Origin: Pseudomonadota bacterium
GTDB lineage: Bacteria; Pseudomonadota; Gammaproteobacteria; Burkholderiales; Gallionellaceae
Length of the DNA stretch: 13,142 nucleotides
Direction: 5' to 3'
Assembly (NCBI GenBank): GCA_021783855.1
Contig: JAJXTL010000072.1
Location: 1 to 13,142 of the forward strand
Position 1 is the first letter of the stretch. Each line of letters starts with the position of its first letter. Below, in pieces: positions 2-13,142 of this stretch. The position numbers and the translations under genes are program-made. The notes below the pieces were generated by a model, which searched no databases, was not told the DNA's origin, and worked only from the letters and a program-made list of their open reading frames with translations.

Positions 2-2608
2 ATCGCCTGCCATCAGGCCGGCCGACTGAATGACGCCGAGCGCCTTTATCGTGGGATTCTCCAGGTTGATCAGAATCATGCGGATGTAAATTTCAATCTG
101 GGCGTTTTGTCGGTGCAGATGAAGCAGCCTGCTGCGGGTCTGCCCCATTTCATCACTGCATTGAATGCCGACCCGACTCGCCGTCAATATTGGTTGGGCT
201 ACATCGATGCATTGCTTCAGTCTGATAAGCCGGAAGATGCAAGGGAAGTGCTGGAACTTGCGAGGCAGTATGGACTGGATGGAGATGAGATTGATGTGTT
301 GGCTGGGCGCGCAAGAGCGCAAATCGAGGAACAATCGAATGTAAAAACTTTGCATGCCGACAGGAAAACGCCGGTTCAGCAGGGAAGCCAAAAAAAAGCC
401 AAGCAGAAATTTGACCGGAATAAACATCCCGCCCCTGAAGAGATCAATGCATTGATCCTTCTGTTCAATCAAGGACGTCTTGCAGAGGTGGTGGATATCG
501 CGCGAAAAATGACCATGCGATATCCTTTATATGGATTTGGCTGGAAGGCGTTGGGCACGTCATTGAGGCAGACGGGAAAAAGACCCGATGCATTGGCTGC
601 CATGCAAAAGGCGGTAAGGTTAATGCCGGGCGATGCAGAAACCCATAGTAATTTGGGGCTTGTACTCAATGATATGAACCGATTGGATGAGGCCGAAGCA
701 AGCTATCTTAGAGCCTTGCAAATCAAACCTGATTATGCCGAGGCGCACAGCAACTTGGGCACTCTGTTGCATGATAAAAAACATTATAGCGACGCTGAAA
801 TTCATTTGCGCAAGGCGATATCGCTAAATCCTCATTTAGCCGAGGCGCATTACAATTTGGCCAATACGTTAAAAGAGATGGAGCGTCTGGTTGAGGCGGA
901 GGCAAGCTACCGGCAGGCCATTCAGATCAGGCCTGATTATGCTGAGGCGCACAACAATATGGGTGTTGTCCTCATGCTGGTCAACCGGCTGGATGAGGCT
1001 GAAGCCAGCTGCCGCCAGGCAATAAAGATCAATCCGGCTTTTGCCTGGGCACATAACAATCTGGGCATCATCCTGAATGATTTGAAGAGGCCGAACGAGG
1101 CGATATCCAGTTACATGAAGGCCTTGGAGATCAATCCGGATTCAGCCGCCGAGATATACAATAATCTGGCAGGTGCGATGCGCAAGCCGGACGATGCCAT
1201 GGAGTGTTTGCGCATGGCGATAAAAATCAAGCCGGATTATGCGCAGGCGTATAACACCATGGGCAATGCAGAGTTGATGCGCGGGCGGCTCGATGATTCT
1301 GTTGCATGCTTTCGCAATGCGCTCAAATATAAGCCCGATTTTGCGATGGCGCACAGCAACCTGATCTATACCCTGGACCTGATGACCTCCGAAGATGTAG
1401 TTTCTTTACAGGCTGCGCGCAAGCGTTGGGATGACGCGCATGGTGCGCCTTTTTATAAACAGCGGCCGCATGGTAACAACCCGGACCCGCAAAGGCGGCT
1501 GCGCGTAGGTTATGTATCAGCCGACATCAAGGATCACTCCGCGACCAAAGTCTTTGGCGGCATGCTGACGCGTTTTGACCGCGCGCAATTCGAAGTGTTT
1601 GCATATTCCAATTTCAAGGGGCAAGATGACAGATCTACCGAATTTTTCAAACAGCACGTGACGGTTTGGCGCAGCGTCGTCGGTTTGTCGGACGATGCGG
1701 CGGCAAAGATGATCAGGGAAGATGAAATAGATATACTGGTCGATCTGTCCGGTCACAGCGCAGGCAACCGACTGCTGGTTTTTGCGAGGAAGCCTGCGCC
1801 GATCCAGATTACAGCATGGGGTTATGCATCGGGCACGGGGATGCGCGCAATGGATGTGTTCTTTAGCGATCCTGTGATGGTGCCGCCCGATGAGAAGCAC
1901 TATTTTTCCGAAGAGGTCAGATATCTGCCCTGCGTGATAGGCGCATTTTACAACGACCCGTTCCCTGACGTTGATGAACTGCCGGCATTGTCTGAAGGTG
2001 TCATCACGTTCGGAACGCTTAACCGATTGACGAAATTATCGCCGGAAGCCTGCCTGGTGTGGGCTAAAGTATTGCTGGCGATACCCAATAGCAGGTTGCT
2101 GCTGAAATCCCCGGAATCGCAGGATGCGGCGACACGGGAGCGGATTGTCGGGCATTTCACAAAGGCAGGGGTTTCGGCGAAGCGGATTGTCATGCAGGGT
2201 GGCTCATCCTGGCATGAGCATATGCGTGCTTACAATCAGATCGATATTGCGCTGGATCCATTTCCGCATGGCGGCGGAGTAACTTCTTTGGAAAGCCTGA
2301 TGATGGGCGTGCCTGTTCTGACCCAACTTTGGCCGACGATGCCGGGTCGGGTTTCGGCGTCGATCATGACGGTTTTGGGTTTGAGCGACTGGATTGCTGG
2401 GACGTCGGAGGAATATGTTGATCTGGCTGTTAGAAAGGCGCAGGATTTGAAATCGCTATCAGAGCTACGTCGGCAGTTGAGAAGCATTTTCACGTCGTCT
2501 ATCGTAGGCGATCAGGATGCGTATGTAAGGGCTGTAGAGCAGGAATACCGCACGCTCTGGCGCGAATGGTGTTCAAGTCAATCGAGTAAGGATTCCCATG
2601 CGCACTGA
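2..2608 (+). CDS. TPR-repeat GT41 (OGT-like) glycosyltransferase, 5'-truncated by window edge
   Basis: The reading frame is open from base 2, so the start codon lies left of the window. A TTG at 107 could initiate, but the residues before it (starting IACHQAGRLNDAE) continue a TPR unit homologous to the N termini of the next two genes, so it is unlikely to be the true start. Visible order: one TPR-like unit, a segment with YWLGYIDALL, a Lys/Gln-rich linker (about 330-430), about eight 34-residue TPR units (about 530-1345), then a GT41 catalytic domain (about 1495-2575). In GT41 enzymes this domain transfers a sugar, usually GlcNAc, from UDP-sugar to Ser/Thr of cytoplasmic proteins, and the TPRs bind the acceptor. 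The candidate catalytic His (DHS, codon 1535-1537) and the Lys matching the OGT active-site Lys (LTKLSP, codon 2033-2035) are present. The nucleotide-binding stretch reads HGGG (2267-2278) rather than the usual YNGGTT/YNGHTT. One TPR unit (about 1140-1240) is about three residues short. Donor and acceptor are unknown. Confidence 0.9.
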   Translation: MACHQAGRLNDAERLYRGILQVDQNHADVNFNLGVLSVQMKQPAAGLPHFITALNADPTRRQYWLGYIDALLQSDKPEDAREVLELARQYGLDGDEIDVLAGRARAQIEEQSNVKTLHADRKTPVQQGSQKKAKQKFDRNKHPAPEEINALILLFNQGRLAEVVDIARKMTMRYPLYGFGWKALGTSLRQTGKRPDALAAMQKAVRLMPGDAETHSNLGLVLNDMNRLDEAEASYLRALQIKPDYAEAHSNLGTLLHDKKHYSDAEIHLRKAISLNPHLAEAHYNLANTLKEMERLVEAEASYRQAIQIRPDYAEAHNNMGVVLMLVNRLDEAEASCRQAIKINPAFAWAHNNLGIILNDLKRPNEAISSYMKALEINPDSAAEIYNNLAGAMRKPDDAMECLRMAIKIKPDYAQAYNTMGNAELMRGRLDDSVACFRNALKYKPDFAMAHSNLIYTLDLMTSEDVVSLQAARKRWDDAHGAPFYKQRPHGNNPDPQRRLRVGYVSADIKDHSATKVFGGMLTRFDRAQFEVFAYSNFKGQDDRSTEFFKQHVTVWRSVVGLSDDAAAKMIREDEIDILVDLSGHSAGNRLLVFARKPAPIQITAWGYASGTGMRAMDVFFSDPVMVPPDEKHYFSEEVRYLPCVIGAFYNDPFPDVDELPALSEGVITFGTLNRLTKLSPEACLVWAKVLLAIPNSRLLLKSPESQDAATRERIVGHFTKAGVSAKRIVMQGGSSWHEHMRAYNQIDIALDPFPHGGGVTSLESLMMGVPVLTQLWPTMPGRVSASIMTVLGLSDWIAGTSEEYVDLAVRKAQDLKSLSELRRQLRSIFTSSIVGDQDAYVRAVEQEYRTLWREWCSSQSSKDSHAH
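2588..2592 (+). promoter_or_regulatory. Ribosome binding site of second GT41 gene
   Basis: AAGGA lies 5 nt before the ATG at 2598, inside the last codons of the preceding gene. It supports ATG 2598 as the start and an 11-bp overlap with the first gene, which suggests translational coupling. Confidence 0.6.
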
Positions 2609-5468
2609 TCATCCTGCCGTGACGGTCGATGAACTGTTGAGACAGGCCATTGCATTTCATCAGGCGGGGCAATTGCAGGAAGCGCAGGCGCAATATGCCG
2701 CAATTTTGCAATCCGATCCCAATCATGCGGTGGCGCACCACAATCTGGGGATTTTGCTTGTACAGCAGAACCGGGCAGCGGACGGTCTGCCTTATTTTGT
2801 GGCGGCGCTTCAGGCCGATCCTGCACAGGGTCAATACTGGTTGAATTATATCGATGCGCTGTTTCAGGCCGGACAAATGGATGAGGCGAGGCAGACCCTG
2901 ATGATGGCCCGCGAGCATGGGCTGCAGGGGGCTCAGGTTGAGGCGCTGGCAGAACGACTGGCGCGCCGCGAAGGTCCCGGCAATCAGGAGATGGATGAAC
3001 TGGTTGCCTTGTTTTCTCAAGGACGATATGAAGACGCGGCGGCTCGGGCCGAGAAGCTGACAGTGCAATTTCCCGGTCATGAATTTGGCTGGAAGGCGCT
3101 GGGGGTTGCTTACAAGGAACTGGGAAGGACTGAGGACGCATTAGTCCCCATGCAGAAGGCGGCGCTGCTGTCGCCTTCCGATGTCGAGGCGCATTACAAC
3201 TTGGGCGTTGTTCTTCAGGCGCTGAATCGGCCAGATGAGGCAGAGGCAAGCTATCGGAAAGCGCTTGAGATACAGCCGGATTATGTGGATGCACATATGA
3301 ATCTGGGCGTTTTGCTGCATGAGTCTAAACGGTTTGAAGATGCAGAGCGGAGTCTGAGACGTGCGCTTGAAATCATGCCTCAGAGTGAGAAGGCTATATT
3401 CAACCTGGGCAATGTGCTGTTGAAGCTGGGTAAGCTCGACGAAGCCGAACGGATTTTCAAAAGCGCGCTGAAGCTGACGGGCAGTGAAGGCGAGGCGCAT
3501 TTCGGGCTGGGCAGGACGCTCAAGGAATCGGGGCGTTTGGATGAGGCGGAGGCTGCATACAGGCAGTCGCTGCTGTTCAATCCTGACAATGCGAACGTGC
3601 ATTACAACCTGGGCAATCTTCTCAAGGATGGGGAGCAGATGGATGAGGCTGAGTCAAGCTATCGGAAGGCGATAAATATCGATCCAGGCTTGGCCCTTGC
3701 ACATTACAACCTGGGCAATATCCTAAAGGACATGGACCGGCTGGAGGAAGCAGAGGAATTCTGCCGTCGAGCTGTTGAATTAAAGCCGGATCATGTCGAG
3801 GCGCATTGTAGTTTAGGTATGCTTTTGAGTAGCAAAGGTAACTTGGAAGAGGCAGAAGCTAGTTTACGCAAGGCGTTGCAACTCAGTCCGGATCATGCGG
3901 ATGCGTATTGCATTCTGGGCATCGTTTTTTTAGTCACAAAGCGATTAGAAGAGGCTGAAGCCAGTTTACGCAGGGCATTGCAGATCGAACCGGATTTTGT
4001 TGAGGCACATAACAACCTAGGGGTTGTTCTCAAGGAGATGGGGTGTCTAGATGCGGCAGAAACCAGTTTACGCAGGGCATTGCAGATCAAAGTGGATTAT
4101 GATGAAGCATTGTGCAATTTGGGCGGTGTGCTTATTCGTTCTGGCCATGTGCATGAGTCAATCCAATGCTTACGAAAAGCGCTAGAGCACAAGCCCAATT
4201 TTGCGCTGGCGCACAGTAATCTGATCTATGCGCTGGATCTGATGGATAGCGAAGACGTTGAGTCCCTGCAGGCAGAGAGAAGAAATTGGGATGCTGCGCA
4301 CGGTGCGCCTTTTTATAAGCACTGGGCGCATGCAAATAAGCCCAACCCTGAGCGTAAACTGCGCATAGGCTATGTTTCGGCCGACATCAAGGATCATTCT
4401 GCTGCGAAAGTGTTTGGCGGCATGTTGACGCGTTTTGACCGCGCGCAATTCGACGTGTTTGCGTATTCCAATTTCAAAGGGCAGGATGACAAATCTACCG
4501 AATTTTTCAAACAGTACGTGACGGTTTGGCGAAGCATCGTCGGGCAGTCAGACGATGCGGCTGCAGATATGATCAGGAATGACGGGATAGACATATTGGT
4601 GGATCTTTCTGGTCACAGCGCAGGAAACCGCCTTCAGGTGTTTGCAAGGAAGCCGGCGCCGATCCAGATCACTGCATGGGGTTATGCATCGGGTACGGGG
4701 ATGGGCGCGATGGATGTGTTTTTCAGCGATCCCGTGATGGTGCCACCGCATGAGAAAAAGTATTTCGCCGAAGAGGTCAGGTATCTGCCTTGTGTGGTGG
4801 GGGCTTTTTACAATGAGACATTTCCTGATGTGAATGAACTGCCGGCATTGGGGCAGGGGATAATCACTTTCGGCTCGCATAACCGGCTGACCAAATTGTC
4901 GCCTACAGCCTGTCGCGTGTGGGCTGAAGTTTTGCTTGGTGTTCCTGACAGCAGGCTGATATTGAAGTCCCCTGAAACGCAGGACTTTTCAACCAGAGAG
5001 AGAATTACAGGGCATTTCACAAGGGCTGGAGTGACATCTGAGCGTATCATCATGCAGGGGGGGGCGCCCTGGTACGAGCACATGCAGGCATACAACCAGA
5101 TCGACATCGCTTTGGATCCGTTTCCGCATGGAGGCGGCGTGACAACAGTGGAAGGCCTGATGATGGGTGTGCCGGTAGTGACCCAGCTCTGGCCGACGAT
5201 GCCGGGTCGCGTATCGGCGTCGATCATGACGGCATTGGGTTTGACAGACTGGATTGCTGGGACGTCGGAGGAATATGTTGATCTGGCTGTTCGCAAGGCT
5301 GCGGACCTGCAATCGCTTTCCAAGCTGCGTCAACAACTGCGAGGTATTTTTACTTCATCAATCATTGGTGATCAGGATGCGTATGTAAGGGCTGTAGAGC
5401 AGGAATACCGCACGCTCTGGCGCGAGTGGTGCAAAAAGCGCATGTCAAATGAGGACCATAAAGTTTAA
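2598..5468 (+). CDS. TPR-repeat GT41 (OGT-like) glycosyltransferase, 956 aa
   Basis: Second gene of the array; it starts inside the end of the first gene. The N terminus (residues 1-130) has a TPR pair and the YWLNYIDALF segment. About eleven consecutive 34-residue TPR units follow (residues about 163-536), then a GT41 domain (about 585-950). The presumed catalytic His is 600 (KDHSAAK) and the active-site Lys is 766 (RLTKLSP). The UDP-binding stretch is DPFPHGGGVTTVEGLMMGVP, as in the first gene, so these two form a subfamily distinct from gene 3. No signal peptide or membrane segment is visible, so the protein should be cytoplasmic. Its N-terminal DNA is nearly identical to gene 3, while patches of its C-terminal DNA are identical to gene 1. 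TPR units 8-10 look recently duplicated. A G8 run (5057-5064) sits in the catalytic domain. It probably glycosylates protein Ser/Thr; the substrate is unknown. Confidence 0.92.
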   Translation: MRTDHPAVTVDELLRQAIAFHQAGQLQEAQAQYAAILQSDPNHAVAHHNLGILLVQQNRAADGLPYFVAALQADPAQGQYWLNYIDALFQAGQMDEARQTLMMAREHGLQGAQVEALAERLARREGPGNQEMDELVALFSQGRYEDAAARAEKLTVQFPGHEFGWKALGVAYKELGRTEDALVPMQKAALLSPSDVEAHYNLGVVLQALNRPDEAEASYRKALEIQPDYVDAHMNLGVLLHESKRFEDAERSLRRALEIMPQSEKAIFNLGNVLLKLGKLDEAERIFKSALKLTGSEGEAHFGLGRTLKESGRLDEAEAAYRQSLLFNPDNANVHYNLGNLLKDGEQMDEAESSYRKAINIDPGLALAHYNLGNILKDMDRLEEAEEFCRRAVELKPDHVEAHCSLGMLLSSKGNLEEAEASLRKALQLSPDHADAYCILGIVFLVTKRLEEAEASLRRALQIEPDFVEAHNNLGVVLKEMGCLDAAETSLRRALQIKVDYDEALCNLGGVLIRSGHVHESIQCLRKALEHKPNFALAHSNLIYALDLMDSEDVESLQAERRNWDAAHGAPFYKHWAHANKPNPERKLRIGYVSADIKDHSAAKVFGGMLTRFDRAQFDVFAYSNFKGQDDKSTEFFKQYVTVWRSIVGQSDDAAADMIRNDGIDILVDLSGHSAGNRLQVFARKPAPIQITAWGYASGTGMGAMDVFFSDPVMVPPHEKKYFAEEVRYLPCVVGAFYNETFPDVNELPALGQGIITFGSHNRLTKLSPTACRVWAEVLLGVPDSRLILKSPETQDFSTRERITGHFTRAGVTSERIIMQGGAPWYEHMQAYNQIDIALDPFPHGGGVTTVEGLMMGVPVVTQLWPTMPGRVSASIMTALGLTDWIAGTSEEYVDLAVRKAADLQSLSKLRQQLRGIFTSSIIGDQDAYVRAVEQEYRTLWREWCKKRMSNEDHKV
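2722..3253 (+). repeat. Long direct repeat, copy 1 (N-terminal coding region of gene 2)
   Basis: This 532-bp stretch aligns without gaps to 5583-6114 (offset 2861). I counted about 22 mismatches by eye, or about 96% identity. It covers the second TPR unit, the YWLNYIDALF segment and the first two units of the main TPR array. Weaker similarity continues to about 3630. It marks a recent duplication or gene conversion between genes 2 and 3. Confidence 0.88.
3859..4088 (+). repeat. 102-bp tandem repeat units within TPR array
   Basis: The string AGTTTACGCA recurs at 3861, 3963 and 4065, exactly 102 bp (34 codons, one TPR unit) apart. The last two copies share 26 identical bases (3961-3986 and 4063-4088). 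These units encode the eighth to tenth TPRs of gene 2 and look like a recent in-frame expansion. This is not a CRISPR array: the repeats are coding and have no unique spacers. Confidence 0.75.
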
Positions 5469-5479
5469 GGTGCGCTGAT

Positions 5480-8089
5480 ATGACGGCAGATCAACATTTG
5501 CAACTTGCAATTAAATCCCATCAGTCAGGGCAGTATGCAGAAGCCGAGAATCATTATCTTGCGGCGCTGAAGGCTGATCCGCATCATGCGGTGGCGCACC
5601 ACAATCTGGGGATTTTGCTTGTGCAGCAGAACCGGGTAACGGACGGTCTGCCTTATTTTGTGGCAGCGTTGCAGGCCGATCCTGCACAGGGTCAATACTG
5701 GTTGAATTATATCGATGCGCTGTTTCAGGCCGGACAAATGGATGAGGCGAGGCAGACCCTGATGATGGCCCGCGAGCATGGGCTGCAGGGAGCTCAGGTT
5801 GAGGCGCTGGCAGAACGACTGGCGCGCCGCGAAGGTCCCGGCAATCAGGAGATGGATGAACTGGTTGCCTTGTTTTCTCAAGGACGATATGAAGACGTGG
5901 TGGCTCGGGCCGAGAAGCTGACAGTGCAATTTCCTGGCCATGAATTTGGCTGGAAGGCGCTGGGAGTTGCATACAAGGAACTGGGAAGGAATGAGGATGC
6001 GCTGGAGCCCATGCAGAAGGCGGCGCAGCTGTCGCCTTCCGATGTCGAGGCGCATTACAACTTGGGCGTTGTTCTTCAGGCGCTGAATCGGCCGGATGAG
6101 GCAGAGGCAAGCTACCGCAAGGCGCTCGAGATACAAACCGATTATGCAGATGCGCAGGCCAACCTGGGTGTCGTGCTGCATGCGATCGAACGCCTGGATG
6201 AAGCGGAGAAGCATCTGCGCCTTGCGTTGCAGATCAGACCGGATCATGCCAAGGCGATCTACAATCTTGGTAATGTGCTGATGGAGCTGGGCAAGCACGA
6301 AGAGGCGGAACGGATTTTCAGGCATGCGCTGCAGATCAGGGAAGATAGCGAGGCGTATTTCGGACTGGGCAGGGCACTCAAGGAGCTGGGTCGTTTGGAT
6401 GAAGCGGAGGCTGCATACAGACAGTCGCTGCAGTTGAGTCCTGATAATGCGAACGTGTATTATAATTTGGGCAATCTTTTCGTCCAGCAGGGTCGTATGG
6501 ATGAAGCTGAAATTTGCTACCGGAAGTCATTGGCATCCAGCCCGGATTTTGCAAAAGCCTACAATAATCTGGCATTGACGCTAAAAGACCGAGGCGAACT
6601 AAAAGAAGCTGAAAGGGCTTGCCGTTTTGCAATGTCTATCAATCCAGATCTTCAGGAAGCGCACAACAGCCTGGGATTGACCCTGAAGAGCCAGGGGCGT
6701 CTGGACGATGCGTGTGAATGCTTTCTGCATGCGATTGATCTCAAACCCGATGATGCCGCAGCGCTCAACAATCTGGGCAATGTGTACAAGGATACAGGCA
6801 GGCTGGATGAGGCCGTCGATTGTTATCGACGGGCCGTTGCAGCCGACCCCAGGGACACACAAGCGCACAGCAACCTCGTCTATTCGATTTATTTTCATCC
6901 CGCATACGACGAGCAGGCAATACGGGAAGAGGCGGAAAAATTTGCACTATCCCATAGACCGCCCGCTTTGAGACTGCACAAAGATTATGACCGCACGCCG
7001 GATCGGCGTTTGCGCATCGGTTATGTTTCCCCGAATTTCAGGGGGCATTGTCAATCTTTCTTCACTGTCCCACTGCTATCCAATCACAATCACAACAGTT
7101 TTGAGATTTTCTGCTATGCGCAGTTGCTGCGCGAGGACGAGGTGAGCCTGCGTTTGAAGGGTTATGCGGATGTATGGCGGAGCACGCAAGGCAGGAGCGA
7201 TGCGCAACTGGCGGACATGATAGCCGGGGATGGCATAGACATACTTGTCGACCTGACCATGCACATGGACAAGGGAAGGCCTATGCTGTTTGCAGCCAAG
7301 CCGGCGCCAGTGCAGATTTCCTGGCTTGCCTATCCTGGAACCACTGGAATTCCGCAGATCGACTATCGGCTGACAGATCCATGGCTCGATCCAGTCGAAT
7401 CTGACGATAGGCGCTACACAGAGAAATCGATCAGACTGCCTCATACGTTCTGGTGTTACGATCCGCTGATATCCGGGCTTCAACCCAATCCACTACCGGC
7501 GCTGAGCGCAGGCCATGTTACTTTCGGCTGTCTCAACAATTTCTGCAAGGTCACGGACGATACGTTAAAACACTGGGGAAAAGTCCTGGCAAGTGTGGAG
7601 GGCTCGCGCCTGCTCCTGCTGTCTCCATTGGGTTCACATCGCCAGCGCGTTCTGGATGTGCTGTCGGATGATGGCGTCCTTGCCGATCGGGTGGAGTTCG
7701 TCGAACCGATGTCGCGGGAACAATATCTGAAAACCTATCACCGCATCGACATCTGCCTGGATACCTTGCCCTACAACGGCCATACCACGAGCCTCGATGC
7801 ATACTGGATGGGCGTGCCGGTGGTGACCCAGATTGGCTCGACCGTCGTCGGCAGGGCAGGATGGAGCCAGCTCAACAATCTGGGGCTAACTGAACTTGCA
7901 GCCCTCGATGAAAAATCTTTCGTGAGAATTGCGGCTGAGCTTGCAGCGGATTTACCTAAGCTTGATCATCTCAGGAAAACTCTGCGGGATATCATGGAAT
8001 CAAGCCCACTGATGGATGGAAAGGGTTTTGCAGGCGCGATGGAGACCATCTATCGAGGTATCTGGCAGAACTGGTGCACGGAGCGCTGA
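5480..8089 (+). CDS. TPR-repeat GT41 glycosyltransferase with canonical OGT-type domain, 869 aa
   Basis: Third gene of the array, 11 nt after gene 2. ATG 5480 is preceded by TAAGG at 5466-5470. The N-terminal half is a near copy of gene 2: a TPR pair, YWLNYIDALF, then about nine TPR units (residues about 155-460), the fourth being one residue short. The C-terminal domain (about 510-865) is a different, more canonical GT41 version. It has GYVSPNFRGH with candidate catalytic His523, DLTMHMDKGRP, WLAYPGTTGIPQIDYRLTDP, active-site Lys690 (NNFCKVT), and a UDP-binding stretch with YNGHTTSLDAYWMGVPVVT starting at residue 765. It should be a cytoplasmic enzyme moving a sugar from a UDP donor to protein Ser/Thr, with the TPR superhelix selecting acceptors. 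The sharp change in relatedness between its halves suggests a chimera formed by recombination. It ends 12 bp from the stop of the oppositely oriented cyclase gene, with no clear terminator between them. Confidence 0.93.
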   Translation: MTADQHLQLAIKSHQSGQYAEAENHYLAALKADPHHAVAHHNLGILLVQQNRVTDGLPYFVAALQADPAQGQYWLNYIDALFQAGQMDEARQTLMMAREHGLQGAQVEALAERLARREGPGNQEMDELVALFSQGRYEDVVARAEKLTVQFPGHEFGWKALGVAYKELGRNEDALEPMQKAAQLSPSDVEAHYNLGVVLQALNRPDEAEASYRKALEIQTDYADAQANLGVVLHAIERLDEAEKHLRLALQIRPDHAKAIYNLGNVLMELGKHEEAERIFRHALQIREDSEAYFGLGRALKELGRLDEAEAAYRQSLQLSPDNANVYYNLGNLFVQQGRMDEAEICYRKSLASSPDFAKAYNNLALTLKDRGELKEAERACRFAMSINPDLQEAHNSLGLTLKSQGRLDDACECFLHAIDLKPDDAAALNNLGNVYKDTGRLDEAVDCYRRAVAADPRDTQAHSNLVYSIYFHPAYDEQAIREEAEKFALSHRPPALRLHKDYDRTPDRRLRIGYVSPNFRGHCQSFFTVPLLSNHNHNSFEIFCYAQLLREDEVSLRLKGYADVWRSTQGRSDAQLADMIAGDGIDILVDLTMHMDKGRPMLFAAKPAPVQISWLAYPGTTGIPQIDYRLTDPWLDPVESDDRRYTEKSIRLPHTFWCYDPLISGLQPNPLPALSAGHVTFGCLNNFCKVTDDTLKHWGKVLASVEGSRLLLLSPLGSHRQRVLDVLSDDGVLADRVEFVEPMSREQYLKTYHRIDICLDTLPYNGHTTSLDAYWMGVPVVTQIGSTVVGRAGWSQLNNLGLTELAALDEKSFVRIAAELAADLPKLDHLRKTLRDIMESSPLMDGKGFAGAMETIYRGIWQNWCTER
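5583..6114 (+). repeat. Long direct repeat, copy 2 (N-terminal coding region of gene 3)
   Basis: Partner of 2722-3253 at about 96% identity without gaps. After about 6114 the similarity falls quickly. It lingers through the sixth TPR unit (around 6480) and then ends. Confidence 0.88.
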
Positions 8090-10753: not shown

Positions 10754-10827
10754 TCTTGATTCTACCTCAGAACGGGGATTGCGCGGTGCCGATTGCGGAT
10801 TTGTCTTCTGCCAGCTACATTAGCCAT

Positions 10828-12495
10828 ATGAACAATCCAGACATGCTGGGCAAGTATAAAATCATCGGGGAGCTGGGGCGGGGCGCGATGGGCGTCGTGT
10901 ACGAGGCGTTTGATACGCTGATCGAGCGCAGGGTTGCCATCAAGACGATCCTGAAATCCAGCGTCAACCCGCATGACTCCGACGATACTTTCAGCCGTTT
11001 CCGCCGCGAGGCCATGGCGGCCGGCCGCCTGTCACACGCAAAAATCATCGGTGTCTACGAATATGAAGAGAACGACGAGATGGCGTATATCGTCATGGAA
11101 CTGGTGCGCGGCAGGGAATTGTCCGACTACTTCGATCAGGGCAGGCTGATCTCCATCACGGATGGGCTGCGCATCGTGATGCAGCTTCTGGATGCGCTGG
11201 ATTATCTGCATGCGCATGGTATCGTCCACCGCGACATCAAGCCGGCCAATATCATGCTGACAGAGGATGGGCAGGTCAAGCTCGCGGACTTCGGCATAGC
11301 CAAGATAGATGCTGCCGAACAGACCCAAGCAGGCGTAGTGCTGGGCACACCAACCTATATGGCGCCAGAACAATTCATGGGGCAGGGGGTGGATTTGAGG
11401 GCAGACCTTTATGCCGCCGGCGTGATTCTGTACCTCGTGCTGACAGGGGAACGTCCCTTCGTGGGCAGCGTGATTTCCATCATGCATCAGGCGATGCATC
11501 GGGAGGCGGCACCACCCTCCGAGCTCAACCAAAATATAAGCCGTGAACTCGATGACGTGGTCAAAAAGGCGATGGCCAAGCGCGCTGCAGAGCGCTTCCA
11601 GAGTGCCGATGAATTCCTTTCCGCGCTGAAGTATGCCTTGCGCACATTGCCGGAATCAAATCGCAAAGATGTCAGGATGCGCCATGCCGATAACATGCAT
11701 ACCCATGAAGAGACGCTGGAACTGCCGGGTTTATTGAATGCTGTGTGGCGCGATGAAGATATTGCGGCATGGCAGACCATTTCCCATAGCCACGATCCTG
11801 CGGATTTCACGCGTTATCTCGTTGAATTTCCGGATGGAGGCTATGCAGAACAGGCAAGGTTGCGCATAAGCTCATTGGAAAAGGCCACACGCTGGGAGGC
11901 TGAACAGCGCGCAACGCATGAGACAGAGGAAAAAACAGAGGCAAAAGCCCAGAACCGCATCAGGCTTGAAAGGGAAGAAAGAGCGCTATGGGTGAGTCGC
12001 CTGGCCGAAATAAAAAACGAGACTATAAAAGCCCAGCAACAGCAGGCGGCAAAGCAGGAGCTTCATCAGGTGCAGCACGCAAGGGTGCTGACTGATGCAA
12101 ATGCCGAGCGCGCCAACCGGTTCGCCAGGCTGGTCTCGGACAGGGAAAAAGCCAGCGAGCTTGAGCGCAGGATGAAAATGGAGCAGAAGCAGAAGCTCGA
12201 AGAAGTCGCGCGGCAGAGAGGGCAGTTGCGCTTTAACCGGGAGTCGGCTGAATTGCGGGCAGAGGCCGAGGCGCTTGCAAAGTTGCAGCAGGAGGAGGCC
12301 GAACAGGCAGCCCGCAACGAGGCCATCGTTGTTGCAAAGGCGCAGGCTGAAAGAGCCGAGCGCATGAGAATGGCGGCCGAAAAGGATGCGGCGATCGAAC
12401 GGCAACAGGCCGACAGAAAGATGTTGCTGATCGGCATATTCCTTTTCCTGCTGATGATAGGCATCGTGTTCGGGCTGTTTCCATCAGCCAGATAG
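10828..12495 (+). CDS. Eukaryotic-like Ser/Thr protein kinase, C-terminal membrane anchor, 555 aa
   Basis: Phosphorylates proteins on Ser/Thr. Residues (numbered from ATG 10828) show a complete Hanks-type kinase domain (about 10-275): glycine loop GRGAMG 17-22, Lys39 in VAIK, Glu61 in the C-helix, HRDIKPAN with catalytic Asp136, DFG 154-156, activation-loop threonines around 166-176, and APE 179-181. Next is a short motif (about 310-352; AWQTISHSHDPADF..YLVEFP) like the W..DF..YL..FP repeat seen beside other bacterial effector domains. A long Glu/Arg/Gln/Ala-rich coiled coil (about 353-530) follows. A 20-residue hydrophobic segment (532-551) then ends the protein with only PSAR after it. There is therefore no extracytoplasmic sensor such as PASTA; the kinase should hang in the cytoplasm from a tail anchor. 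The frame stays open upstream: GTG 10786 and TTG 10756 are alternative starts. ATG 10828 is preferred because little precedes the kinase fold, though it lacks a clear ribosome binding site. Confidence 0.9.
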   Translation: MNNPDMLGKYKIIGELGRGAMGVVYEAFDTLIERRVAIKTILKSSVNPHDSDDTFSRFRREAMAAGRLSHAKIIGVYEYEENDEMAYIVMELVRGRELSDYFDQGRLISITDGLRIVMQLLDALDYLHAHGIVHRDIKPANIMLTEDGQVKLADFGIAKIDAAEQTQAGVVLGTPTYMAPEQFMGQGVDLRADLYAAGVILYLVLTGERPFVGSVISIMHQAMHREAAPPSELNQNISRELDDVVKKAMAKRAAERFQSADEFLSALKYALRTLPESNRKDVRMRHADNMHTHEETLELPGLLNAVWRDEDIAAWQTISHSHDPADFTRYLVEFPDGGYAEQARLRISSLEKATRWEAEQRATHETEEKTEAKAQNRIRLEREERALWVSRLAEIKNETIKAQQQQAAKQELHQVQHARVLTDANAERANRFARLVSDREKASELERRMKMEQKQKLEEVARQRGQLRFNRESAELRAEAEALAKLQQEEAEQAARNEAIVVAKAQAERAERMRMAAEKDAAIERQQADRKMLLIGIFLFLLMIGIVFGLFPSAR

Positions 12496-12522
12496 CGCTT
12501 TGATCGGTCAGGATTTTTATGG

Positions 12523-12536
12523 TTGATTTAAATCAA
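12523..12536. promoter_or_regulatory. FNR/Anr/Dnr-type binding site
   Basis: TTGATTTAAATCAA is a perfect 14-bp palindrome and matches the full FNR consensus TTGAT-N4-ATCAA. FNR-family regulators (FNR, Anr, Dnr, FixK) bind such sites under low oxygen or with nitric oxide. Its left half also serves as a possible -35 (TTGATT, 12523-12528), with TAATAT (12546-12551) as -10 after a 17-bp spacer. That would start RNA near 12558. With that geometry the site is centred near -28, which would favour repression. A class II activation start at 12571 would have a poor -10 (AATGCG). Direction of control is therefore open. Confidence 0.6.
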
Positions 12537-12555
12537 GTACCATAGTAATATGCTC

Positions 12556-12640
12556 GGGAATGCGGCTTGAAACCTATCCCCCTTTGAGCCGGCAGGCCCC
12601 CTGCTTGAAAAACCCCCGGACTTCATCCGGGGTTTTTTTT
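12556..12640 (+). ncRNA. Candidate C-rich small RNA with three hairpins
   Basis: Between the FNR-type site and the terminator lie about 85 nt without a convincing gene. Three successive hairpins can be drawn. Hairpin 1 pairs 12563-12571 with 12583-12591 (9 bp, two G-U) around the loop ACCUAUCCCCC. Hairpin 2 pairs GCAGG 12592-12596 with CCUGC 12600-12604 around a CCC loop. The terminator stem 12614-12632 ends in U8. C-rich loops can pair with the G-rich ribosome binding sites of mRNAs, as known for several C-rich regulatory RNAs, so a post-transcriptional regulator is plausible. The 5' end is inferred from the -10 at 12546-12551 and may be off by about 10 nt. It could instead be simply the 3' untranslated region of the kinase mRNA, or be processed from it. 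No Rfam family was recognised. Confidence 0.42.
12614..12640 (+). terminator. Rho-independent terminator
   Basis: CCCCGGA (12614-12620) pairs with TCCGGGG (12626-12632) over a CTTCA loop, followed by eight T. It ends transcription from the kinase gene and/or the candidate small RNA just before the transporter promoter. Confidence 0.92.
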
Positions 12641-12642
12641 GG

Positions 12643-12673
12643 TTGAAAGCGAAGATGGCGGCAATGTTATAAT
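12643..12673 (+). promoter_or_regulatory. Promoter of ZIP transporter gene
   Basis: A perfect -10 TATAAT (12668-12673) follows a -35-like TTGAAA (12643-12648) with a 19-bp spacer, somewhat longer than ideal. RNA would start near 12680, giving a leader of only about 13-22 nt. It lies directly after the terminator, so the transporter is transcribed independently of the kinase. No Zur- or Fur-like palindrome was recognised here. Confidence 0.6.
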
Positions 12674-12701
12674 GAACGGTCCTGATTTTTGAATGTATCC
12701 C

Positions 12702-13142
12702 ATGACCGTTCTGCTTTGGATAGTCGCATCCAGCCTTTTGGGCGGCGCGCTGAGTGTTGCCTGTGCAGCGTTGTTTGCGCTCAATGCTCGCGCGCACTGG
12801 CTGAATGCGCTGGTAAGCTATGCGATCGGTGCGCTCCTGGGTGCGGTATTTCTCGACATCCTGCCTGAGGCGATTCATCTGACCAGGAATGGCGCGGCGT
12901 TGAGCGGCACGATACTCGCTGGCATCCTGCTGTTTTTCATACTCGAGAAGCTGCTGCTGTGGCGGCATTGCCATCACGATCACTGCGAGGTGCATGAGCC
13001 GGAAAAAAAACACGCCTATGGACGCAGCGGCCTGATGATCCTGTTCGGCGGCACCTTTCATAATTTTGTCGATGGCGTAATCATCGCCGCGGCATTCCTG
13101 ACCGATGTGCATCTGGGTATAGTGACGTCGCTTGCGATCATC
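12702..13142 (+). CDS. ZIP-family metal transporter, 3'-truncated by window edge
   Basis: Inner-membrane carrier that takes up or moves divalent metals such as zinc, iron or manganese. The 147 visible residues hold hydrophobic helices at about 3-26, 34-55 and 67-87, then a His-rich cytoplasmic loop (RHCHHDHCEVHE, about 88-99). Next comes a helix with the ZIP-family metal-site motif HNFVDG (residues 120-125). LDILPEA near residue 51 is also typical of the family. The remainder, including the second half of the metal site, lies beyond the window. ATG 12702 is used because it opens directly on the first helix (MTVLLWIVASS). An in-frame ATG at 12693 would add three residues, and neither has a clear ribosome binding site. 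The metal specificity cannot be read from this fragment. Confidence 0.88.
   Translation, partial: MTVLLWIVASSLLGGALSVACAALFALNARAHWLNALVSYAIGALLGAVFLDILPEAIHLTRNGAALSGTILAGILLFFILEKLLLWRHCHHDHCEVHEPEKKHAYGRSGLMILFGGTFHNFVDGVIIAAAFLTDVHLGIVTSLAII

Follow-up and report, generated by a model that had tools for sequence, protein, structure and literature searches.

A covariation-supported small RNA gene between kinase and ZIP transporter genes in Gallionellaceae, probably a divergent sibling of anti-hemB RNA

The nearest known kind of RNA to the one described here is anti-hemB (Rfam RF02837), also termed Burkholderia RNA 7 and, in B. cenocepacia, ncS04; this RNA and the double-hairpin RNAs of the same organism are described as expressed small RNAs (PMC5688073). 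The betaproteobacterial double-hairpin or ‘toxic’ RNAs (RF02278; ncS27) are, as portrayed in the accounts cited, short and endowed with CU-rich unpaired stretches, complementary to ribosome-binding sites (PMC5688073) and proposed to cover them (PMC5688073, PMC11722255). NcS27 is presented as a regulator of metabolic shutdown upon nutrient loss (PMC10987360), while Bordetella S17, whose 5′ end is reported to be similar to RF02278, is credited with direct repression of one target through a pairing expected to disrupt ribosome binding (PMC11722255). In Rhizobiales, the alpha-r14/NfeR1 or ‘cuckoo’ RNAs are described as successive hairpins exposing an anti-Shine-Dalgarno motif, with NfeR1 silencing ntrB via anti-Shine-Dalgarno loops that block its start region (PMC10746234). 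The literature searched gave no account of the function of anti-hemB RNA (in PMC6515984 ‘anti-hemB’ is the name of an antibody), and a search for Gallionella small RNAs turned up one paper, which concerns Paracoccus.

The window analyzed here, a stretch of 13,142 nucleotides of a Gallionellaceae contig (JAJXTL010000072.1), contains in the gap between a kinase gene and a ZIP gene a block for which an initial annotation had proposed a new regulatory RNA gene with C-rich loops, its own promoter and terminator, and control by FNR. FnrS of E. coli and AniS of Neisseria, small RNAs with an FNR box at the promoter, were the likeness in mind; in FNR-activated promoters the site is centered at about -41.5. 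The proposal as a whole is partly supported: conservation, covariation and a common promoter back the RNA gene, and FNR control does not emerge as its defining feature. We consider it likely that the block encodes a stand-alone, trans-acting small RNA, a probable divergent paralog of anti-hemB, that would block the ribosome-binding sites of a few mRNAs.

The upstream syntenic neighbor of the block is a Ser/Thr protein kinase gene (10756..12495, forward strand; PF00069), and downstream lies a ZIP-family metal transporter gene (12693..13142, forward strand; PF02535), cut by the end of the window and preceded by a TATAAT at 12668-12673; positions 12500-12640 were read directly. A sigma70-like promoter on the forward strand (12523..12551) combines a -35 box TTGATT (12523-12528), 17 nt, and a -10 box TAATAT (12546-12551). 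Agreement with the consensus extends to 8 of 12 positions, one fewer than the nine required by an automated promoter scan, which therefore missed it. As annotated, this promoter overlaps the palindrome TTGATTTAAATCAA (12523..12536, not assigned to a strand), whose left half is the -35 box and which is the sole exact occurrence in the window of TTGATNNNNATCAA, the FNR consensus. From the conserved -10 box we infer a likely start at 12558-12559, 6-8 nt downstream of it, which places the center of the palindrome at about -28.5 and gives a predicted RNA of about 83 nt (12558..12640, forward strand) supported by the conserved block, matches of the covariance models R1 and R2 (see below), and covariation.

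All the structural elements originally noted are present, each on the forward strand. Hairpin 1 (12563..12591) has nine pairs, two of them G-U, and a C-rich loop ACCUAUCCCCC at 12572-12582, the proposed pairing seed; hairpin 2 (12592..12604) reads GCAGG-CCC-CCUGC; and the intrinsic terminator (12614..12640) consists of a stem (12614-12632) followed by U8 (12633-12640). The segment folds more stably than shuffled sequences, with z-scores of -2.66 for 12555-12640 and -2.85 for 12552-12640, and single-sequence folds of 13 sequences ranged from -2.85 to -6.87 (L159 being folded in part). In the window’s own minimum-energy fold hairpin 2 is replaced by another pairing, and the lower stem of hairpin 1 is missing 5 nt in the window when set against the copies L001, L002 and L020. 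In one copy, at L122:1401-1513 (genome G013), the loop of hairpin 1 contains a nested small hairpin with a CUCCC loop of its own. A scan of the window with Rfam returned zero families at the gathering threshold; NsiR1, which tops the 22 rows below threshold with 24.1 bits, was taken to be a terminator-driven chance match.

Copies of the block occur at the same locus in relatives and elsewhere. The ZIP protein matched 194 places, the best being L001 (97% identical); among the best 80 of these, the named ones belong to the Gallionella group or Nitrosomonadales, with the exception of L078 (Anaerolineaceae). Among the upstream regions listed, the block stands ahead of the ZIP gene in L001 (genome G001, the nearest relative), L002 (metagenome-assembled genome, MAG, G002) and L020 (MAG G004), preceded in each by the kinase gene (85, 69 and 68% identity, respectively), and at L003 (ZIP 88% identical) there is a terminator upstream in sequence otherwise unlike the block. 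DNA similarity across 158 genomes from the same family as G001 yielded matches in nine at E <= 0.01, of which those in G001, G002, G004 and G051 (L110) were real by eye; the remaining five matches, L084 and L111-L114, fell on terminators or in coding sequence. A covariance model built from five copies, R1, run on the window, the 80 best ZIP loci (some with short upstream stretches) and L110, found full copies (>=73 bits) only in the window, L001, L002, L020 and L110, the next score being 25.5. Run on the 158 family genomes, R1 gave matches in 65 at E <= 1; among 14 loci examined, L145 and L146 (both in G029), L147 (G120) and L122 (G013) were judged real, seven were terminators or coding sequence, and the truncated loci L123, L125 and L128 were kept outside the accepted copies. 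The second model, R2, contributed L159 in G012. Six copies thus lie beyond the kinase-ZIP locus, in G051, G120, G029 (two), G013 and G012, and the window-type set comprises ten (window, L001, L002, L020, L110, L147, L122, L145, L146 and L159). A further match, L082 (G002:C19), was not counted: it is identical across 1745 nt to the L083 region (G004:C8) and was handled for that reason as a probably contaminating contig. At the level of the order, 399 genomes were drawn and nine gave matches at E <= 0.001: G001 and G134 are in the family, L155 in G534 is an anti-hemB copy (55.9 bits), and L150, L151, L153, L154, L156 and L157 were unrelated by eye. Sequences with a terminator only reach comparable R2 scores (L174, 30.5; L154, 32.1; L150 and L151, 34.2 bits).

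When the ten copies are aligned, standard pairs fill 94.3% of the paired cells, and changes on both sides of a pair occur in 19 of 27 pairs: in 8 of the 13 family-helix pairs of hairpin 1 (12563-12591 in the window), all five of hairpin 2, and six of nine in the terminator. Such changes fill 52 cells versus 19.2 +/- 3.4 in shuffled alignments and at most six in controls with slid partners. With 29 sequences (28 distinct, anti-hemB-like ones included), 90.8% of cells are paired, and both-side changes extend to 24 of 27 pairs and 164 cells. These alignments were fitted to the structure and are hence biased towards it, but so large a difference, together with the z-scores of the single-sequence folds, makes an artefact unlikely. 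On these comparative grounds a small-RNA gene at the block is well supported, and the conservation of its structure and promoter and the distribution of the family can be read from the sequences. Conservation, which the initial annotation had set as a test of its proposal, divides: the stems are kept and covary, and the palindrome is full in only two of eight aligned promoters.

Eight of the ten copies keep the promoter boxes and their spacing, and their promoters can be aligned without gaps as TTGAYN-17 nt-TANNNT (window, L001, L002, L020, L110, L147, L122 and L159), with the first four -35 bases, the tenth and last two bases of the spacer, and three -10 positions invariant. Those of L145 and L146 do not align and show only weak promoter-like matches; the 110 nt upstream of them contain neither an FNR-like site (<=2 mismatches) nor GAACT, and a TTGT...ACAA-type inverted repeat lies ahead of hairpin 1. 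The conserved promoter bears on whether the block might instead belong to the kinase gene as its 3′ untranslated region and terminator, giving at most a processed fragment. Its position directly after the kinase, on the same strand, in the window, L001, L002 and L020 would fit that explanation; yet the promoter is conserved, other loci too carry copies whose promoter can be aligned (the one in L110 follows pgeF), and a kinase homolog was not found at L110, L147, L122, L145, L146 or L159 (some of these loci being short), and we judge it very improbable. Still less credence can be given to activation of the RNA by FNR at low oxygen, as for FnrS and AniS, the original suggestion. The exact consensus at the promoter, found in the window and L001 only, is the likeness to these RNAs, and FNR is present in relatives, but the box is unconserved among orthologs, being absent from most copies, and is misplaced for activation: a center at -41.5 rather than about -28.5 would need a -10 box at 12559-12564 (AATGCG) and a start inside hairpin 1.

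The position of the site suits repression, and FNR might repress the RNA in one sub-lineage when oxygen is lacking: the ancestor common to the window and L001 would have acquired a box on top of its -35 element, and the RNA of this sub-lineage would thereby respond to oxygen. FNR is encoded in G001, G002 and G004 (L223, L221 and L222; NF008365 over the NCBIfam cut-off), so that lineage-specific repression is possible, and its consensus seems to be in use: exact sites number seven in G001 (in 2.7 Mb) and three each in G002 and G004, and one in each of these three relatives precedes genes with similar N-termini (L219, L210 and L209) and is likely genuine. Across the eight promoters, in the order given above, the right half-site matches 5, 5, 3, 4, 3, 1, 2 and 2 of 5 positions. 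The palindrome is exact in the window and L001 and 9/10 in L020, but its right half reaches no more than 3/5 in L002, L110, L147, L122 and L159, and L145 and L146 have no site. One half being already required as the -35 box and the spacer being AT-rich, a full palindrome arises easily by chance; the initial estimate of one exact site per 80 windows is correct as plain 4^10 arithmetic, but the count in G001 gives about one per 29. The supposed FNR site is probably, for the most part, one half of an ordinary promoter; an FNR input in the window and L001 sub-lineage, most simply repression, is possible, and the full scenario of a gained repressor box is, in our estimation, unlikely.

The stand-alone RNA shares with anti-hemB a hairpin 1 whose loop is C-rich and whose 3′ side carries GAGC, a hairpin 2 and a terminator, and differs in loop 1 (AUCCCCC in the window type, ACCUAUCCCCC in the window itself, versus CUCCUCCC in the RF02837 consensus), in promoter (sigma70 versus a GGAACTA-N16-TCTGA-like element) and in location (between the kinase and ZIP genes, whereas the one anti-hemB copy checked, that of G001, lies between engB and hemB). 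By Rfam’s rule it is not a member, the window scoring 16.0 bits against a gathering cut-off of 49.5; the arrangement of two hairpins and a terminator with a C-rich loop 1 is found in the family structure, and the window’s minimum-energy fold lacks hairpin 2. RF02837 itself exceeds its cut-off in 142 of the 158 family genomes; all 14 control genomes stay below it. An anti-hemB over the cut-off, together with a second match of 36-48 bits, accompanies the window-type copy in six of the eight genomes that have one, G012 and G013 being without this combination. Scored directly with RF02837, window-type loci gave 29.9 (G013), 25.9 (G120), 24.8 (G001), 21.1 (G012) and 16.5 bits (G002), with the copies of G004, G051 and G029 absent from that listing; since 11 of the 14 controls also have matches at E <= 1 (zero over the cut-off), only the scores of G013, G120 and G001 were counted. 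Under laxer filters L146 (G029) scored 30.1 bits, the best of any window-type locus, and L110 (G051) 27.8. The match begins inside loop 1 in G001, G013 and L110, so the score there is carried by hairpin 2 and the terminator. RF02278 and the ‘cuckoo’ RNAs are more distant: the former, with two hairpins to the window’s three, scored 12.2 bits against a cut-off of 50; the latter, compared by description, are alphaproteobacterial, reported as Hfq-independent, and carry in three hairpins the motif CCUCCUCCC, absent from the window loops ACCUAUCCCCC and CCC (PMC10746234).

Could the likeness to anti-hemB reflect convergence of C-rich hairpins and terminators, the window type being an independent family? 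The score of 16.0 bits, the different loop and promoter class, and the several RF02837 matches that omit the 5′ side of hairpin 1 all speak for this. Against it stand the RF02837 scores graded from 60 to 27 bits across intermediates that share a similar hairpin 2 and, in hairpin 1, a 3′-side GAGC, and the composition of the R2 matches. At E <= 0.003 these comprise 47 rows, 10 of them window-type (one the contaminant) and 37 others; RF02837 places are enriched among the latter, matching 24 (13 over its cut-off). Within the remaining 13, L161 has the architecture by eye and zero RF02837 match, and L174 and L176 are terminators. Convergence thus strikes us as rather unlikely, and the window RNA is a probable divergent sibling, or paralog, of anti-hemB.

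Anti-hemB matches often number several per Gallionellaceae genome, with seven in G070 at E <= 0.1. Upstream of these RNAs (L179-L208) lies a shared TGGAACTATTT...TCTGA-like element, similar to the consensus of ECF/sigmaE promoters. Among 30 anti-hemB loci, 24 have full flanks: GAACT is present upstream in all 24, and GAACT(T/A) followed after 13-19 nt by a TCTGA-like box in 16 (TCTGA itself in 11). The anti-hemB copies L238, L239 and L240 scored 29-31 bits with RF02278 (cut-off 50), a hint of kinship between the families.

As to function, the sigma70 housekeeping-type promoter would start the stand-alone RNA of about 83 nt, which its own terminator would end, leaving hairpin 1 to expose the C-rich loop ACCUAUCCCCC and hairpin 2 a second C-rich loop. 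The RNA would act in trans, probably with Hfq, which was found in six of the eight window-type genomes (in G001 and G012, of completeness not given, it was not found); the RNA has a U8 tail. By analogy with the published RNAs, the loop should pair with G-rich start regions, and translation of a few mRNAs would be blocked at their ribosome-binding sites. A screen of 665 start regions in 800 kb of G001 (about 30% of the genome, with naive start calls) counted 7-nt matches in 13 for the window loop, versus a mean of 13.6 for permuted loops, and in 20 for the G001 version of the loop versus 12.8, a level reached by 15 of 100 permutations. The anti-hemB loop matched 30 regions versus 12.1 (1 of 100 permutations), behaving like the 16S anti-Shine-Dalgarno sequence (25 versus 10.9). 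A role of the window type as a general ribosome-site blocker was accordingly rejected, as its loop did not outperform permutations with an identical composition, which implies few targets if pairing occurs.

The best candidate among these is the start region of a response regulator, which ranks first of the 665 with the window loop (-21.9 kcal/mol) and which we take to be pilG; Pfam and NCBIfam identify a receiver domain alone, with no NCBIfam family over its cut-off among the matches listed. With their own loops, the candidate site scores -15.8 in G001 (rank 5 of 665) and -25.6 in G004; the G002 loop pairs weakly with its own site (-14.4, a strength equaled by 29 of 665 G001 regions). The site is kept also in G003, where searches found a terminator but no RNA copy. 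Having been picked post hoc, and given this conservation where a copy is lacking, the pilG-like target is a lead only. The start region of an M23 peptidase was discarded as a target, its site not being kept in relatives.

A covariation-supported small RNA missed by Rfam is thereby added in a family of iron oxidisers, and the widespread anti-hemB RNA is suggested to be one of a group of siblings that are distinguished by their loops and by the class of their promoters, which makes it testable which of these two features determines what each sibling does. More speculatively, and with considerable doubt, the Gallionellaceae anti-hemB RNAs might form a sibling set with split input and output: the parent driven by an ECF/sigmaE-type promoter, its loop directed broadly against ribosome-binding sites, the window type with a sigma70 promoter, an AUCCCCC loop, narrow targets (the pilG-like candidate) and FNR repression in one sub-lineage. 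If true, this would tie the window-type RNA to oxygen in microaerophilic iron oxidisers. Elsewhere in the window, positions 2-8089 encode three adjoining large proteins on the same strand, each combining TPR repeats with an OGT-like domain of glycosyltransferase family 41.
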